Of a DNA stretch of 64,000 bases, positions 51,592 through 62,527 are shown one piece after another; positions within the stretch are counted from its first letter, which is position 1, and the number at the start of each line of letters is the position of its first letter. Position numbers and translations under genes: made by a program. Source of the DNA: Anaeromicrobium sediminis (lineage in GTDB: Bacteria > Bacillota > Clostridia > Peptostreptococcales > Thermotaleaceae); contig NZ_NIBG01000006.1 of NCBI RefSeq assembly GCF_002270055.1, positions 62,001 to 126,000 of the forward strand, read 5' to 3'. The notes beneath the pieces were generated by a model. That model made no database searches and had not been told where the DNA came from. It was given only the letters and a program-made list of their open reading frames with translations.

Positions 51592-51689
51592 CGTTTTATT
51601 GACGTTATTATTATAAATTATAGAAAATATTGAAAATTGTAAATTCGTATTATAAACTAATTACAAAAGCTATGTATAAGGGTGATTGT

Positions 51690-54600
51690 ATGAGCATGAA
51701 TATTGAAAGAGAAGCATTGAAAATAAATTTATTTGGAGAGCCAAAGATAATAGTAAATAGTACTGAAATAAGCTTTCCATATAAAAAGGCAGAAGCATTA
51801 TTATATTATTTAGTTGTGAAAAAAAGAGAGACTAGGGAGATTCTAGGTAATCTATTATGGGAAAACACAAATGATGATAAATTAATCAAAAAAAATCTTA
51901 GGAATGCCATATACACCATAAAAAAGTTTATAAGTAAAGATATAATTATAAAAAAAGGAAATGAAGTAATAGAAATTAATCCTAAATATCTAGAAAATGT
52001 GGATATAAACAAATTTTTATATGTGGATAGCTCTGAGATCATTAATATATATGTGGGAGATTTTTTAGACAAGTTTACAATAAAGGATTCTTGTGAATTT
52101 CAAGAGTGGGTAGAATTTAAGAGACAAGAATATAGGGATATGTTCATCGATAAACTAATTAAAGGAATAGAGAATCATATTGAAAGAGATGAGCTAATAA
52201 TAGGGAAAAAATACTGCAAAAGATTAATTAAATTAGATGAATTTGATGAGAGAGCTTATAGGCTATTAATTGATATATATGAAAGACAGGGTTCTTACAA
52301 TAAGTGTTTAGATTTATATAAAAAATTAGAAAAACTTTTAAATGACGAACTTTTAATTTCTCCAGATCATTTAACGAAAAAGAGAATAGAAAATGTGAAA
52401 AATAAGAGAATTGAAGAAAAGGATCATATGAAAAAATATAATGATTTAAATTATTTGAATGATTTAAAGGAAGATTGTTTAGGTGGCAATGGTTTCTTTT
52501 ATGGTAGAGATAAGGAATTAAAAAAAATTATAGATAATTTTAAAAAATTTTATAATGAACATACTACAAAATCAGTATGTCTTATGGGGGAAATGGGCAT
52601 TGGAAAGAGTAAGACGGCTACAGAGTGTTTAAATATTATTAAGAATATATCAAACCAACACGTTTTGACTACTCAATGTTACAAGGCAGAAGAAAAATAT
52701 TTGTTAAAATGTTGGAATGATATATTTAATGGAATATCTAAAATCATAAAGAAGGATCAAATATCTATTTCTAAAAAACTTATTAATATTGTATCCTTAA
52801 CTTTTCCAAATTTTGATTTTAATAATGAATATAGTTTGAATTGTACAGAAAAATTAGACTTTTTAAAGTATCAAACGGCAGAAAATGCTATTGTGGAGCT
52901 CTTAATTCAGGTGTCCAAGAATAAGAAAATAATAATATATATAGATGATTTTCAGTGGGCAGATGAACTTAGTATATCCCTATTGAGAAGTATAATAACT
53001 AGGGATAAAAACAAATCCATATTATTCATAATAAATTGTAGAGAAAACTCTAATAGATATGTGGAAGAATTTTTATTAGATATGTTTAAATATAATCTAA
53101 TAGATAAAATTAAGCTAGAAAGATTTACAGAGGAAGAAACTATTGAATTTACAAAAAAAGTACTAGATACTACAAAGCTAGATTTACAAGTGAAAAAGGG
53201 TATATATAAGGAGACTGAGGGAAATGTTTTTTTTCTAGTAGAAATTTTAAATAATATTAAAGAAAATAAAAAATTTCATAAGATTACTCCTAAAATACAA
53301 GATGTACTAAAAAATAGGATTATGCCTATATCAGAAAGTGGAAAAAAGATTTTGGATATATTATCCATATTCTTTAATAAGACGACCTATGAGATTTTAG
53401 AAGATATATCTTTAACAGGTGGTTTAGATTTAGTAGAGATAATAGATGAGCTAATAAAAAAGAATCTCATAGTAGAAAAAGGAAATTTAGAGGAAGTCTA
53501 TTATGAATTTACCCATCAAAAAATAAGGGAGTATATTTATGGAGATATGTCCCTATCAAAGAAGCGAATTTTACATAATCGTGCAGGAGAAACTTTAGAA
53601 AAGAAACTAAAAAATAACAAAAGAGATGTGATTATGTATTCTCAGCTAATATATCATTTTGAAAGATGTGGGAAAAAATATAAAGTTCTTAAATATAAAA
53701 TAAAATATCTATATGAATATTTACAATTTACACACGAGGTCTTTCCGTTAGTATATTTTAAAGGTAATGAGAAAAAGACATTTCTAGATAGAAGAATAAC
53801 TAATAGGCAGATTAAAAAAAGTATAGGTGAAATGGAATTATTATTAGATGAAGTAAGGGATGATATGAAGGGTGAAGATGGAATAAATCTAATATGCGAA
53901 TATTTACATATGATAGGGCGATTTCATATTAGACAAGGAGAGTACGAAAAGGGTAAGAAATATATATATGAATTAATAAATATAAGTGAAGAAAACCATA
54001 TGGAAAGAAACATTATAAAGGCATATAGACAACTTATGTGTTATCACATAAACACTTATAATACAAGGGGTATGAAGACTACAATTGATAAAGCTTTAAG
54101 CATAGTTAGAGAATTTAAAGTACCTGAAGAAGAAGCCATTTGGTGGAGATTAAAGGGTCTTTTATATATTATGAAGGGAGAATATGAGGAAGGGGAAAAA
54201 CTTCTTAGTTCTGCCATTGAAGTTTTTGAAAGATCCAAAGAAAGATATAAGTATATATCAAACTTAGCAGCCGCATATAATTGGATTGGGGAAAGTAAAA
54301 AAAATGTTAAGGATTATGAAAATGCACTAAAATATTTTAACAAAGCCATAGATATGAATAAGAAGTATGGATTAACAGAGGCCCTTTGCGTATTTAACAC
54401 TAATGCAGGACAGGTTGCTTATGAAATGGGGGATTATGGTGGCGCCGAAAGATATTTATCTAATGCCTTGAAGTATTATGAAAAGGTAGATACCTTATGG
54501 TTAAGATCATTAGCCCATACCTATTATGGAATGGTTCTATTTCATAAAGGTGAATATAATAAATGTGTTAGTTCTTTAATATATGCAAATAAATATTGTA

Positions 54601-54755
54601 CTAAACTAGAAAGTCCCTATGAAACTGGAATTTTTTATAGACGTATGGCAGAGTTAAAAAGGAAGATAAAAAATAGGAAAATAAAAAATAATGTACTTAA
54701 TAATTATTTTGTGGAAACTGTATATGAATATGAAAAAAAAGCTGAAAACTCCTAA
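51690..54755 (+). CDS. Large SARP/BTAD-AAA-TPR transcriptional regulator
   Basis: A 1021-residue regulator. Residues ~10-90 are an OmpR-like DNA-binding domain of SARP type (INLFGEPKIIVN, LLGNLLWEN-like LGNLLWENTNDD), ~95-240 a bacterial transcriptional activation domain with TPR-like helices (LDEFDERAYRLLIDIYERQG), ~280-560 an AAA-type ATPase (Walker A GEMGIGKSKTA, Walker B IIYIDDFQWAD), and the remainder helical repeats including clear TPRs (ALKYFNKAIDMNKKYG, AERYLSNALKYYEK). Start ATG 51690 with AGGGTGA upstream is preferred over 51630. It lies directly before the ammonia-lyase gene on the same strand and probably controls it. Confidence 0.85.
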   Translation: MSMNIEREALKINLFGEPKIIVNSTEISFPYKKAEALLYYLVVKKRETREILGNLLWENTNDDKLIKKNLRNAIYTIKKFISKDIIIKKGNEVIEINPKYLENVDINKFLYVDSSEIINIYVGDFLDKFTIKDSCEFQEWVEFKRQEYRDMFIDKLIKGIENHIERDELIIGKKYCKRLIKLDEFDERAYRLLIDIYERQGSYNKCLDLYKKLEKLLNDELLISPDHLTKKRIENVKNKRIEEKDHMKKYNDLNYLNDLKEDCLGGNGFFYGRDKELKKIIDNFKKFYNEHTTKSVCLMGEMGIGKSKTATECLNIIKNISNQHVLTTQCYKAEEKYLLKCWNDIFNGISKIIKKDQISISKKLINIVSLTFPNFDFNNEYSLNCTEKLDFLKYQTAENAIVELLIQVSKNKKIIIYIDDFQWADELSISLLRSIITRDKNKSILFIINCRENSNRYVEEFLLDMFKYNLIDKIKLERFTEEETIEFTKKVLDTTKLDLQVKKGIYKETEGNVFFLVEILNNIKENKKFHKITPKIQDVLKNRIMPISESGKKILDILSIFFNKTTYEILEDISLTGGLDLVEIIDELIKKNLIVEKGNLEEVYYEFTHQKIREYIYGDMSLSKKRILHNRAGETLEKKLKNNKRDVIMYSQLIYHFERCGKKYKVLKYKIKYLYEYLQFTHEVFPLVYFKGNEKKTFLDRRITNRQIKKSIGEMELLLDEVRDDMKGEDGINLICEYLHMIGRFHIRQGEYEKGKKYIYELINISEENHMERNIIKAYRQLMCYHINTYNTRGMKTTIDKALSIVREFKVPEEEAIWWRLKGLLYIMKGEYEEGEKLLSSAIEVFERSKERYKYISNLAAAYNWIGESKKNVKDYENALKYFNKAIDMNKKYGLTEALCVFNTNAGQVAYEMGDYGGAERYLSNALKYYEKVDTLWLRSLAHTYYGMVLFHKGEYNKCVSSLIYANKYCTKLESPYETGIFYRRMAELKRKIKNRKIKNNVLNNYFVETVYEYEKKAENS

Positions 54756-54896: not shown

Positions 54897-56519
54897 GTGA
54901 AAAAACTAATATTAGATGGCAGAAATTTGACAATAAAAGATGTGATTAAGGTTGCAAGGGAAAACTTGCAAGTTGAGATTCATGAGGAATCTAGAAATGA
55001 AATAGTTAAAGTTAGAGACTATATAGAAAAAAATTGGATTAGAAGTGATGCTCCACCTGTATATGGATTTAATACGGGAGTAGGAAAATTAAAAGACTAT
55101 AACATTAGTATGGAGGAAAACGATACATTTCAGAATAATATAGTAATGTCCCATTGTGGTGGTGTAGGTGAGCCAGCCTCAGAAGAGTTAGTAAGAGCTA
55201 CTATGCTCGTAAGAATAAATGCCTTTTGTCAGGGGGTATCAGGATTAAGGATGGAAGTAATAGATAGACTTCTTGAAATATTAAACAAGGGAGTCCATCC
55301 AGTAATTCCAATTCAAGGATCTGTAGGAGCTTGTGGAGATTTAGCACCATTAGCACATATGGCTTCTGTGTTAATTGGTTATGAAGAAGCAGAAGCATAT
55401 TATGAAGGGGTTAAAATGAGTGCACCTGAGGCATTACAAAAAGCTGGTATTACACCTATTAAGTATCAACTAAAGGCAAAGGATTGTTTAGCTCTTATTA
55501 ATGGAACGACCATGTTTGCTGCAATGGCTGCTCTGAATTATTATGATGCGGACAGAATAGTAAGAGAAGCAGAAATTTCCGGCTCATTAAGTCTTGAAGC
55601 CATGCGTGGAGAAATGGCTGCCTTTGATGAAAGAATTCATAAGGTTAGAAGACAAAAGGGGCAAATTGATTGTGCTTCAAATGTAAGAAATATAGTAAAG
55701 GATAGTATGCGTGTTACGGAAAAAGCTAGAATGGTTCATTTAAAGCATGATGTACTTCATCCGGTCTACCAACCAAGGGTGCAAGATTTATACTCTCTAC
55801 GTTGTATGGCACAAGTACAAGGGGCATGTAGAGACAATATGGCCTATGCTAAAGATTTACTAGAAAAAGAAATAAATGCAGCTACTGATAATCCATTAGT
55901 ATTTTGGAATGACAAGGGAGAATTGGAATTCTTAAGTGGTGGTAATTTCCATGGAGAACCTATTGCCTTTGCCATGGATATAGTAGCCATGTCCTTAGCT
56001 GAAATAGGAAATATATCTGAAAGAAGAATATTTAGTTTATGTGACTCTGCATTAAATTATGGTCTGCCGCCAATGTTGGTAGGAGAGCCTGTGGGGTTAA
56101 ATTGTGGTTACCCAGTTATATCTTGTGCTGCAGCAGCATTAGCATCAGAAAATAAGACTTTATGTTTCCCAGCAAGTGTAGATACTATTCCAACTAAGAG
56201 TAATCAAGAGGATCATGTTAGTATGGCACCATGGGCATGTAGAAAGGTAAAACAAATCATAAATAATATTCACCAAATATTAGGAATAGAGTACTTATTA
56301 GCAGCAAGAGCTATCTTTGTAACAGAAGAACACTTGGGCCGATTTGATTTGGGAAAGGGAACACAAATTGCATATGAAATTTTAAGAAATGAAATTGAGT
56401 TCAAAATGAACGATAGTTATATGCCAGCTCAATCTAAGCCAGCCATATCCCTTGCTAAGAGCGGAAAAATACTAGATAAAGTTTATGAATGTGTGAGTGG
56501 TTTGATTAATATACACTAA
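54897..56519 (+). CDS. Histidine/aromatic ammonia-lyase family enzyme with Ala-Cys-Gly MIO motif
   Basis: A 540-residue lyase closest in motifs to histidine ammonia-lyase: Tyr56 in VYGFNTGVG, SH86 in the substrate-side loop MSHCGGVGEP, N202GT, DNPLVF, and KSNQEDHVSM. These enzymes remove ammonia from His (or Phe/Tyr) through a 4-methylideneimidazolone cofactor made from an Ala-Ser-Gly triplet. Here the triplet is Ala145-Cys146-Gly147 (codon TGT at 55332). A Ser-to-Cys change in a bacterial histidine lyase is reported to keep activity, so it may still be functional. GTG start with GGAGGAG upstream. No hutU, hutI or hutG is nearby. Confidence 0.9.
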   Translation: MKKLILDGRNLTIKDVIKVARENLQVEIHEESRNEIVKVRDYIEKNWIRSDAPPVYGFNTGVGKLKDYNISMEENDTFQNNIVMSHCGGVGEPASEELVRATMLVRINAFCQGVSGLRMEVIDRLLEILNKGVHPVIPIQGSVGACGDLAPLAHMASVLIGYEEAEAYYEGVKMSAPEALQKAGITPIKYQLKAKDCLALINGTTMFAAMAALNYYDADRIVREAEISGSLSLEAMRGEMAAFDERIHKVRRQKGQIDCASNVRNIVKDSMRVTEKARMVHLKHDVLHPVYQPRVQDLYSLRCMAQVQGACRDNMAYAKDLLEKEINAATDNPLVFWNDKGELEFLSGGNFHGEPIAFAMDIVAMSLAEIGNISERRIFSLCDSALNYGLPPMLVGEPVGLNCGYPVISCAAAALASENKTLCFPASVDTIPTKSNQEDHVSMAPWACRKVKQIINNIHQILGIEYLLAARAIFVTEEHLGRFDLGKGTQIAYEILRNEIEFKMNDSYMPAQSKPAISLAKSGKILDKVYECVSGLINIH

Positions 56520-56661: not shown

Positions 56662-58059
56662 ATGGATAGTAAAATTAAAAAAGTATCATTCCATAAGTCA
56701 TTATTTGTTTTTAGTTTCTTAATTGTATCCTTATTGGCTACTATAAAAGTATTTGATGGGGGCCCTCATATTCCCATATTAGTGTCTGCCATTGTGGCAG
56801 CTATAGTTGCTGTATTAGATGGATTTAAATGGAGTGATATAGAAAGTGGTATTATAGACACTATAAAGGCATCTATGCAAGCAATATTAATTCTGATGAT
56901 AATTGGTAGCTTAATAGGAACATGGATATTAGGTGGTATTGTACCTGCCATGATATTTTATGGACTAAAAATATTATCACCAGGTATATTTTTAATAGCC
57001 ACATGTTTAATTTGTTCTATCATATCTGTAGCCACAGGAAGTTCCTGGTCAACTATGGGAACTGTAGGTATAGCTTTATTAGGAATCGGAACAGGGCTTG
57101 GAATTCCTACAGGAATGATTGCTGGAGCTATAATTTCTGGCGCATATTTTGGAGATAAGATGTCACCCCTATCAGATACTACAAACCTTGCACCTGCCAT
57201 GGCTGGAGCAGATTTGTTTGATCATATAAAACATATGATATTTACTACAGGCCCAAGTTATATTATTACTTTAGTATTCTATGGAGTATTAGGTATGAAA
57301 TTTGCTGGAAAATCCATAGATGCGGTTAGTATAAATACTATATTATCTGCCTTAAATGATGAATTCTTTATTAGTCCTATTTTACTGTTAGCACCATTAT
57401 TAATAATTTTTATGGTTGCGAAGAAAGTTCCAGCTTTACCAGGTCTTATAGGGGGAAGTGTATTGGGAGCCTTGTTTGGAACTGTATTTCAAGGAGCTAG
57501 CATTAGTAAAGTGATTGCATCGGCCCATTATGGATATTCTACAGATACGGGTATTGAAGTGGTAAATAAGCTTTTGAACCGTGGAGGAATCCATAGCATG
57601 ATGTGGACCGTATCACTTATACTAATAGCATTATCCTTTGCTGGTGTAGTTGAAAGAACTGGAATGGTAAAAGCTATTGTTGATAGAATATTAAAACTTG
57701 CAAAGAATGACGGATCCTTAATAACAGCCACCATATGCACTTGTATATTTACTAACTTTGCAACGGGAGTTCAATATGTGGCTCTAGTATTACCAGGAAG
57801 AATGTTTAAAGATGTTTATAGGGAGAGAGGGCTTGCACCTAAGAATTTATCTAGAGCATTAGAAGATTCAGGTACATTAGTAGCACCTTTAGTTCCGTGG
57901 AGTACAGATGCAGCATTTATAATGGGAGCCTTAAGCATAAGTCCATACGTTTATATTCCTTATGCCATATTAAATTTAGTAAACCCTATTGTATCTATAA
58001 TTATAGGTAATTTAGGATGGACTATTGAAAAAATAGATAATAAAGGGCAGACGGCTTAA
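56662..58059 (+). CDS. NhaC-family Na+/H+ or solute antiporter
   Basis: A 465-residue membrane protein with about eleven to twelve helices and NhaC family blocks (IISGAYFGDKMSPLSDTTNLAPAMAG, FTNFATGVQYVALVLPGRMFKD, ALEDSGTLVAPLVPWSTDAAFIMG). Members exchange Na+ with H+ or swap organic acids (for example malate/lactate). Its position 142 bp after the ammonia-lyase gene suggests exchange of the amino acid with its deaminated acid, such as histidine/urocanate; this is inference. RBS AGGAGAGG. Its stop overlaps the convergent downstream gene by four bases. Confidence 0.88.
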   Translation: MDSKIKKVSFHKSLFVFSFLIVSLLATIKVFDGGPHIPILVSAIVAAIVAVLDGFKWSDIESGIIDTIKASMQAILILMIIGSLIGTWILGGIVPAMIFYGLKILSPGIFLIATCLICSIISVATGSSWSTMGTVGIALLGIGTGLGIPTGMIAGAIISGAYFGDKMSPLSDTTNLAPAMAGADLFDHIKHMIFTTGPSYIITLVFYGVLGMKFAGKSIDAVSINTILSALNDEFFISPILLLAPLLIIFMVAKKVPALPGLIGGSVLGALFGTVFQGASISKVIASAHYGYSTDTGIEVVNKLLNRGGIHSMMWTVSLILIALSFAGVVERTGMVKAIVDRILKLAKNDGSLITATICTCIFTNFATGVQYVALVLPGRMFKDVYRERGLAPKNLSRALEDSGTLVAPLVPWSTDAAFIMGALSISPYVYIPYAILNLVNPIVSIIIGNLGWTIEKIDNKGQTA

Positions 58060-58447: not shown

Positions 58448-58843
58448 TTATATTTTTGATATAAGTAATTCTGTATAGCCTGTAGATGAATCAAATTCTC
58501 TAGAAAAAATAGTGTCAGGTAATGATCCAATAACTATTTCAGCTGTAGTATTTATTAAACATCCATCCATTAAGTGACCTCCAAAGACCATTCCATCCTT
58601 AGTAGAAAGGGAAATATGAAGGTGAACTCCATCCTTTGAAAGGGTTCCGCTTAAAGATAGAATTTCTAACTTTTCATCAAAAGCTTTAGTACTAACCCCA
58701 TCTGCTAGCCTAATAGTGCCTTTATATATACAACCTACACAGGTAAGTATTATTCCTGCACTTATGTTATTTTCTTTCGTAAACTCCACCAATTTTTCTT
58801 TTAAATCCATATGTTTAGTGAGTCTTAAACTATGAGTAACCAT
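58448..58843 (-). CDS. PPC (DUF296) domain protein
   Basis: A 131-residue protein consisting of one PPC/DUF296 domain: SLRLTKHMDLKEKLVEF, AGIILTCVGCIYKGTIRLADG, LSGTLSKDGVHLHISLSTKDG and GGHLMDGCLINTTAEIVIG. In plants this fold is found in AT-hook DNA-binding proteins; bacterial stand-alone forms are trimers of unknown, possibly regulatory, role. ATG ending at 58843 with GGAGG six bases upstream; the TTG four codons earlier falls in that site. Transcribed divergently from the lacI-type gene. Confidence 0.88.
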   Translation of the reverse strand: MVTHSLRLTKHMDLKEKLVEFTKENNISAGIILTCVGCIYKGTIRLADGVSTKAFDEKLEILSLSGTLSKDGVHLHISLSTKDGMVFGGHLMDGCLINTTAEIVIGSLPDTIFSREFDSSTGYTELLISKI

Positions 58844-58953
58844 AAAAACCTCCAATTTGATAAAATGAAAAAATTATAATAATAATGTATCACTAAATTG
58901 GTAAAATAGCTACTTGTATAAGTTTTTGGAAAATTATACAAATTAATAATATA

Positions 58954-61201: not shown

Positions 61202-62527
61202 ATGTTTAAGTCAAAGAGACTATTAGCTTTAACGATCATATTAGTAATGGCTGCTAGTATGTTCTTTACAGGCTGCTCAAAGAAGGAAGAAGTAGCTCAA
61301 GAAACAGGAAAAGTAGAAGTGGATGTATTCCAATTTAAAGTTGAAATAGCAAAGGAATTAGAAAATGCAGCAAGAGATTATGAAGCAGAACATCCAGATG
61401 TTAAGATCAACATTCAAACTGTTGGTGGTGGAGATGACTATGGTGCAGCTCTAAAGGCTAGATTCCAATCTGGAAATGAGCCAGATATATACAACGTTGG
61501 TGGTCCACAAGATCTAAAAGATTGGACTTCAAAGTTAGAAGATTTATCAAATGAGCCATGGGTAGAAAAGGCACTTGACGGAGTATTATCAGGAGCTACT
61601 ATGGACGGAAAAGTTTATGCATTACCATTTAACATTGAAGGATATGGATTCGTATATAATAAGGGAATCTTTGAAGCAGCAGGAATTGATCCTACTAAAA
61701 TAGTAGACTATGCTTCTTTAGAAGAAGCAGTTAAGACATTAGATGGAAAGATTAAAGCAGGAGAATTAAAAGAAAAGTATCCTACGCTAGAAGCTGTATT
61801 TGAGTATGCGGCAAAGGAAACTTGGGTAACAGGATTACACACATCAAATGTGGCACTTAGCCAAGAATTCCCTAGTTCATTAGATGCTTACAACTCTAAA
61901 AACGTGGAGTTTAAGTATGGAGATTCTTTAAAGAAGATAATTGATTTACAAGCAGATTATTCATCAAATGGAAAGACTAGAGCAAAATTAAATGCAGTTG
62001 ACTATTCAACTCAAGTAGAGCAAGGATTAGCAATTGAGCGTGTAGCTATAATCCAACAAGGAAACTGGGTATATGGTGGAGTTAAGAGTATAGATGAAAA
62101 GGTAGCAGATAACTTAGCAATTTTACCAATGCCAGTTGTAGGAGCTAAAGAAGATTCAATTCCAGTGGGAGTTCCAATGCATTGGGCAATCAACAAGGAT
62201 AGTGATGATGCTTCTAAGGCAGCAGCTAAAGATTTCTTAAACTGGTTATACACTTCTGAAAAGGGAAAAGATTATGTAGTTAACAAGTTCTATTTCATTC
62301 CTGCATTTAAAGGATATGAAAACTTTGAGCCACAGGACTCATTAGGAAAAGCAGTTAAAGCCTATGCTGAAGCTGGAAAGACTGTTCCTTGGGTATTCAT
62401 GGGATATCCTACAGGATGGGGAATGGATATGTTAGGAGCAAATATTCAAAAGTATTTAGCAGGAGAAATGACTTGGGATGAATTAATTAAAGACTCTCAA
62501 GAAAGATGGACAAAGGAAAGAAGTTAA
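61202..62527 (+). CDS. Sugar ABC transporter substrate-binding lipoprotein
   Basis: A 441-residue lipoprotein (lipobox FTGC, Cys25) of extracellular solute-binding family 1. Fold markers are VDVFQFKVEIAKELENAARDYE-like opening, GNEPDIYNVGG, YALPFNIEGYGFVYNK and AIIQQGNW-like VAIIQQGNWVYGG. It captures an oligosaccharide for the two permeases encoded downstream. The sugar cannot be named from the sequence. RBS GGGGGAAG. A hairpin before the permease gene probably allows higher expression of this protein. Confidence 0.93.
   Translation: MFKSKRLLALTIILVMAASMFFTGCSKKEEVAQETGKVEVDVFQFKVEIAKELENAARDYEAEHPDVKINIQTVGGGDDYGAALKARFQSGNEPDIYNVGGPQDLKDWTSKLEDLSNEPWVEKALDGVLSGATMDGKVYALPFNIEGYGFVYNKGIFEAAGIDPTKIVDYASLEEAVKTLDGKIKAGELKEKYPTLEAVFEYAAKETWVTGLHTSNVALSQEFPSSLDAYNSKNVEFKYGDSLKKIIDLQADYSSNGKTRAKLNAVDYSTQVEQGLAIERVAIIQQGNWVYGGVKSIDEKVADNLAILPMPVVGAKEDSIPVGVPMHWAINKDSDDASKAAAKDFLNWLYTSEKGKDYVVNKFYFIPAFKGYENFEPQDSLGKAVKAYAEAGKTVPWVFMGYPTGWGMDMLGANIQKYLAGEMTWDELIKDSQERWTKERS

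Follow-up and report, generated by a model that had tools for sequence, protein, structure and literature searches.

Histidine ammonia-lyase (HutH or HAL; EC 4.3.1.3; protein model TIGR01225), as known from Pseudomonas putida (structures 1b8f and 1gkm), is the closest described counterpart of the enzyme analysed here. In the P. putida enzyme, Tyr53 is catalytic, His83 belongs to the HAL-type Ser-His pair and Ser143 is the serine that gives rise to the MIO cofactor; Asn195, Gln277, Tyr280, Arg283 and Phe329 are further catalytic residues. A mutant of this enzyme with cysteine in place of the MIO serine (S143C) was reportedly converted to active enzyme by Langer, Lieber and Retey in 1994. A second counterpart is the ergothionase of Treponema denticola (6s7j), which belongs to the same fold family and is described in the accessible part of PMC13405746 as an enzyme without MIO. 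The accessible text of PMC9002059 gives the middle residue of the MIO triad as Ser only, and that of PMC11432326 (2024) assigns Ala-Ser-Gly (ASG) to most aromatic ammonia-lyases. Excerpts of a 2015 survey of UniProt (PMC4745020) count 292 didehydroalanine annotations derived from Ser, which map to ammonia-lyases, and 35 derived from Cys, which map to thiamine thiazole synthases. A search of the open-access literature for Cys-type triads, S143C, ergothionase and histidine derivatives returned, within the portions of text accessible there, no report of a natural lyase with Ala-Cys-Gly (ACG). The HAL of T. acidophilum (7tqr), for which the available part of PMC9555226 reports crystal density consistent with MIO, was considered as a known ACG enzyme and set aside; its triad is given as X in the PDB, and none of the sequences collected here came closer to it than 51% over the tested fragment.

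The window analysed here is a stretch of 64,000 nucleotides, positions 62001 to 126000 of contig C6, from Anaeromicrobium sediminis, a species with a genome of 4.71 Mb that shares its order with Maledivibacter halophilus (Clostridia). On its plus strand, at 54897..56519, the window encodes a PF00221 (HAL/PAL/TAL) ammonia-lyase of 540 aa, identified from the ORF, Pfam, an AlphaFold2 model and Foldseek. The ORF begins with a GTG start codon preceded by a GGAGG site and contains no internal stops. Ala145-Cys146-Gly147 (codons GCT TGT GGA; 55329..55337, plus strand) stands at the position of the MIO precursor Ala-Ser-Gly, in the context GSVGACGDLAPLAH. In a phmmer alignment, Cys146 falls on Ser143 of P. 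putida HAL, and the QED motif is common to both proteins. Tyr56, His86 and Asn202 (plus-strand codons at 55062..55064, 55152..55154 and 55500..55502) align with Tyr53, His83 and Asn195, and Glu438 (56208..56210, plus strand), within QEDHVSM, is the HAL-type equivalent of Glu414. The window lyase has in common with HutH the catalytic residues and the HAL-type His83 and Glu414 equivalents, but differs by having Cys where P. putida HutH has Ser143 and by 12 extra residues before RVQD. With the S143C mutant it shares a Cys at the MIO serine, which in the mutant is a product of the laboratory and in the window lyase is natural and conserved.

Profile and structure comparisons place the protein in the HAL branch. 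It matches PF00221 with 562.6 bits (Pfam cut-off 27.3) and exceeds the threshold of the HAL subfamily model NF006871 (571.6 vs 524), but falls 5 bits below the cut-off of the hutH equivalog TIGR01225 (534.4 vs 539.15) and lies outside a hut cluster. The AlphaFold2 model, in which the MIO group is beyond the scope of the method, has a pLDDT of 92.8 and a pTM of 0.93. Its top PDB match in Foldseek is P. putida HAL (1eb4, TMq 0.89); 1b8f and 1gkm have the same fold (TMq 0.88-0.89), as does ergothionase 6s7j (TMq 0.87). In sequence, ergothionase scores 214 bits against the window protein vs 344.9 for P. putida HAL. Assignment of the window lyase as an ergothionase or other MIO-less lyase was rejected, given that HAL chains score far higher and that two other genes of the genome fill the MIO-less niche.

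The first-pass annotation had read a natural ACG triplet, with a TGT codon at 55332, had described the rest of the active site (Tyr56, His86, Asn202, QEDHVSM) as conserved, and had judged that the gene is not decaying; each of these statements is borne out by the open frame and the intact active site. It had also named a sequencing error at 55332-55334 as a possible objection. Such an error is very unlikely, because relatives 83% and 75% identical to the window lyase also have Cys, encoded by TGT and TGC, respectively. With Cys shared by both relatives and an open frame around an intact active site, the chance that ACG reflects a sequencing error or a decaying gene is negligible; nothing was found that would favour either.

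A rarity of the triplet is not borne out. A scan of a species-level genome collection at the DNA level with the pattern G-x-x-G-[AS]-C-G-D returned at least 116 loci in at least 26 named phyla. The ORFs of all 116 listed loci (102 bacterial, nine archaeal and five without a named domain) match the family profile built here and read Ala-Cys-Gly. ACG is also invariant in a 42-row alignment, the rows of which had been picked as ACG. Since the pattern demands Cys and the listing is of at least 116 loci, these counts give no frequency of ACG, and two samples unselected for Cys were therefore added. A sample of 296 Bacteroidota genomes yielded 24 genes that their identity (63-80%) assigns to the main clade. 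Of these, 21 have ACG and three have ASG, and the six next loci read beyond the main clade all have Ser. In one Thermoplasmatota class, 64 of 80 genomes have a family match, and the 67 genes read (69 matches less two short end fragments) comprise 31 with ACG, 34 with ASG and two without a triad call. ACG also occurs in records of Aliidiomarina, Woeseiaceae, Rhodospirillaceae and Poseidoniia. As a variant of the MIO precursor, the ACG triad is natural and widespread, and it is very probably functional. If many natural enzymes are of the Cys type, the motifs used for annotation would have to become broader; such a group would also amount to many natural replicates of the S143C experiment and would offer direct tests of MIO formation. 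Six loci (L041, L052, L063, L100, L114 and L143) pair the ACG gene with a tandem paralogue that has ASG or SSG.

Ser and Cys have replaced each other repeatedly. For the trees, identical cores were merged and a minimum protein length of 420 aa was applied, giving 151 rows (103 ACG) and then 240 rows (149 ACG). The FastTree of 240 rows requires 12 Ser/Cys changes, at least eight of them forced, and an IQ-TREE of 55 rows, chosen by hand and with the triad columns removed, requires nine by parsimony, at least six of them forced by starred branches. Ser is found in eight of the 144 rows that carry the GDLxPM motif of the main clade, and two of these eight genes adjoin urocanase. The codons in use are close to one another. 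Cys is encoded by TGC in 93 and by TGT in 56 of the ACG rows, and Ser by AGC or AGT in 63 of 77 ASG rows (one further ASG row is outside the codon tally) and by TCC in the ASG rows of the Agrobacterium vitis group; AGC, AGT and TCC are each a single base away from a Cys codon. A compensating residue paired with Cys was sought as well and rejected. The columns that best separate Cys from Ser across the whole family simply mark the large clade, and within that clade none of 515 columns has disjoint residues in the Cys (136) and Ser (8) rows, indicating that no partner residue is required for Cys. The best single column there, at residue 264 of the window lyase, separates the two with a balanced accuracy of 0.92, a value that involves only eight Ser rows. 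The repeated change fits a near-neutral exchange in which both residues would give the same mature cofactor.

Several ACG genes occupy positions expected of histidine ammonia-lyases. The clearest example is Aliidiomarina taiwanensis, where a single stretch carries an apparently complete hut cluster. It comprises an ACG HutH, HutI and HutU as identified by BLAST, and HutG-like and HutC-like genes that were named by eye. The ACG HutH passes TIGR01225 (690.6 vs 539.15), and no second PF00221 match was found in that genome. Two main-clade ACG proteins that were scanned fall below the same cut-off (517.8 and 519.6). In the Thermoplasmatota class, 21 of the 31 ACG genes have a urocanase homologue within 4 kb, compared with 12 of 29 ASG genes belonging to the other type. 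At E <=1e-60, all but two of the 31 ACG genes (29) are the sole PF00221 match of their genome, in a set where many genomes are drafts. Among the listed pattern matches, 12 of 116 lie within 4 kb of a hut gene, as judged from stretches that are partial tiles, so that most ACG genes are without a demonstrated histidine context. The active site is nearly invariant throughout: outside the window clade, the equivalents of His83, Asn195, Arg283, Phe329 and Glu414 are present in 145 of 145 ACG proteins and those of Tyr53, Gln277 and Tyr280 in 143 of 145 each. These observations make Cys look like a normal natural alternative to Ser as the MIO precursor.

An alternative is that Cys stays a free thiol and that the ACG enzymes are MIO-free, using acid/base or thiol chemistry in the manner of ergothionase. 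MIO-less PF00221 enzymes do exist, as the accessible part of PMC13405746 documents for ergothionase, and the window genome contains both an ergothionase-like gene and a second triad-less copy. Its five PF00221 genes are two ASG genes, the window gene and these two, from which it follows that MIO-less members do arise. Both ASG genes are hutH genes in hut clusters as read by eye, one on contig C8 with HutU, HutI and FtcD and the other on contig C44 with HutI, FtcD and a urocanase tail at the contig end; the only match to the urocanase model in the genome is on C8. With two ASG HutH proteins present and the window protein just under the hutH cut-off, it is conceivable that the window copy has lost the need for MIO. 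However, the MIO-less copies read GSVGEADIT and GSVGYLDIE, having lost the triad together with its Gly-Asp context, whereas both the catalytic residues and G-S-V-G-A-C-G-D-L are retained among ACG members. Ergothionase differs from the window lyase in the same respect, being MIO-less where the latter keeps the A-x-G-D frame. ACG members also swap repeatedly with Ser and fill HutH positions. A MIO-free chemistry for the ACG enzymes is therefore unlikely.

The reading preferred here, in which we have good but not complete confidence, is that the window gene encodes a functional MIO lyase of the HAL branch with Cys146 as the MIO precursor, that Ser and Cys are near-neutral alternatives, and that the window clade probably acts on histidine or a modified histidine. 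On folding, the Ala145-Cys146-Gly147 loop would cyclise like Ala-Ser-Gly, and Cys146 would shed H2S where Ser would shed water, yielding the same MIO group. The mature Cys-type protein would then be chemically identical to the Ser version, and with Cys and Ser codons mostly one base apart, lineages could drift between the two. The conversion of Cys to MIO had been suggested together with the original ACG call and is the likely mechanism. Sequence, conservation, distribution, gene contexts and the repeated Ser/Cys change are observed, whereas MIO formation from Cys, lyase activity, substrate and transport are inferred. A more far-reaching proposal is that Cys-derived MIO formed by loss of H2S constitutes a widespread natural second route, which would span at least 26 phyla in bacteria and archaea alike and trade places freely with the Ser route, and that the window clade is an undescribed lyase for a modified histidine, the product of which is oxidised by a partner Mo hydroxylase. 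We advance this combined proposal tentatively, at slightly short of even chances.

The first-pass annotation had raised the idea of a distinct subfamily, and the phylogeny agrees: the window gene belongs to a separate clade of seven sequences (support 100/100; four Cys and three Ser) with gene neighbours of its own. All eight active-site positions are kept in the seven proteins, among them the equivalents of Tyr53, Asn195, Gln277, Tyr280, Arg283 and Phe329. The Cys members besides the window lyase are those of M. halophilus (83% identical, TGT), a Desulfobacteraceae MAG (75%, TGC) and an Oscillospiraceae MAG (64% over 465 residues of a gene cut by the contig end). The Ser members are the lyase of genome G058 (66%) and two lyases of A. 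vitis-group plasmids (63%), the latter read from among seven records at 60-80% identity in a plasmid search. Among 98 genomes including its own, the genes more than 48% identical to the window lyase are, besides itself, just those of M. halophilus and G058; 393 sampled genomes of the order yielded no members beyond M. halophilus and G058 at E <=1e-140, 341 genomes of the class yielded just one ordinary ASG homologue (48%) at E <=1e-135, and none was found among 299 sampled genomes of the phylum or, additionally, among five genomes of the M. halophilus family.

The window lyase is flanked by a BTAD/AAA/TPR transcriptional regulator (51630..54755, plus strand; Pfam BTAD, AAA_16 and TPR) and an NhaC-family Na+/H+ antiporter-type protein (56662..58059, plus strand; TIGR00931 482.8 vs cut-off 370); no hut gene is among its immediate neighbours, and no Mo hydroxylase match was found in the 64-kb window. 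Further downstream, the minus-strand small protein at 58448-58855 has, by eye, the look of a PPC/DUF296 domain. Both neighbours recur in M. halophilus, where the regulator is 58% and NhaC 72% identical to the window proteins; that locus additionally encodes an AGCS symporter, PatB and a Mo hydroxylase of three subunits. In the Desulfobacteraceae MAG, the lyase is accompanied by NhaC (62% identical), Mo hydroxylase, AGCS and PatB, and the 17 kb read there contain no BTAD-type regulator. The G058 locus has Mo hydroxylase subunits, and a test of 20 kb around it found neither NhaC nor the regulator. No NhaC, regulator, Mo hydroxylase, AGCS or PatB is seen in the Oscillospiraceae stretch. The AGCS symporter and PatB-type C-S lyase of M. 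halophilus and the Desulfobacteraceae MAG (L155, 15272-17959; L179, 3255-6065) are 80% and 67% identical.

These contexts bear on the suggestion that Cys is an anaerobic specialisation linked to this BTAD regulator and NhaC. Within the window clade, the lyases with Cys are from Clostridia, Desulfobacteraceae and Oscillospiraceae, which are anaerobic lineages. However, ACG is also present in Aliidiomarina, Woeseiaceae, Rhodospirillaceae and Poseidoniia, and the ACG HutH described above is from A. taiwanensis, an aerobic isolate. A general tie to regulator and antiporter is not borne out: tblastn with the window proteins found either one at M. halophilus only, among the 116 pattern loci listed and in stretches of up to 8 kb, and the longer Desulfobacteraceae stretch adds NhaC alone to this tally. 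Such an anaerobic specialisation is highly improbable.

The remaining question is the substrate. The window lyase could simply add a third HAL to the two HutH proteins of the genome and use unmodified histidine, as its HAL-type His86 and Glu438 and its score above the NF006871 threshold would suggest. However, two ASG HutH genes of the same genome already stand in hut clusters, no hut gene adjoins the window lyase, and the contexts across its clade are NhaC, Mo hydroxylase, PatB, AGCS or, on the A. vitis-group plasmids, ErtD/ErtE-type genes. Histidine itself is therefore a possible substrate that we consider somewhat doubtful. On the plasmids, genes passing the NCBIfam models ErtD (744.7 vs 600) and ErtE (576.2 vs 520) precede the lyase, although a general Zn-dependent hydrolase model outscores ErtE on the latter gene. 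ErtD and ErtE form the end of ergothioneine use that leads from hydantoin-5-propionate to glutamate, and a pathway from a histidine derivative to glutamate is possible at this locus. Among nine loci and the window, homologues of ErtD/ErtE were found near the lyase on the A. vitis-group plasmids only. Both plasmids (L153 and L154, 7252-11614) carry the ASG lyase, the ErtD/ErtE-type genes and an ABC transporter set.

The ergothionase-like gene of the window genome has similar surroundings. Its best PDB match is 6s7j (521.6 bits), and its neighbours are a BCCT transporter, a Mo hydroxylase to which that of M. halophilus is 55% identical, and a 39% paralogue of the window BTAD regulator. Together, NhaC, Mo hydroxylase, ErtD/ErtE and the regulator paralogue favour a histidine-type and probably modified substrate. 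The accessible text of PMC11432326 cites N-tau-methylhistidine as a compound on which HAL is active. From the neighbouring genes we infer that the window-clade enzyme would probably deaminate a histidine-type compound, with a modified histidine more likely than histidine itself, that the NhaC-type protein, possibly the transporter of the module, may import the substrate under control of the BTAD regulator, and that in the relatives a xanthine-dehydrogenase-type Mo hydroxylase would act on the resulting imidazole acrylate.

Other observations concern related loci. On C8 (L158, 301-10819), the ergothionase-like lyase, BCCT, three-subunit Mo hydroxylase and BTAD regulator directly adjoin the hut cluster. 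The second MIO-less gene, on C37 (L159, 6544-10686; GSVGYLDIEAH), has BCCT-like transporter and ferredoxin-like neighbours by eye; ergothionase is not its closest match, and it may act as a lyase on a different betaine, for example histidine betaine. Finally, a histidyl-tRNA-synthetase-like gene was seen by eye in the ACG stretch at nine loci (L054, L088, L102, L107, L109, L120, L121, L122 and L149).
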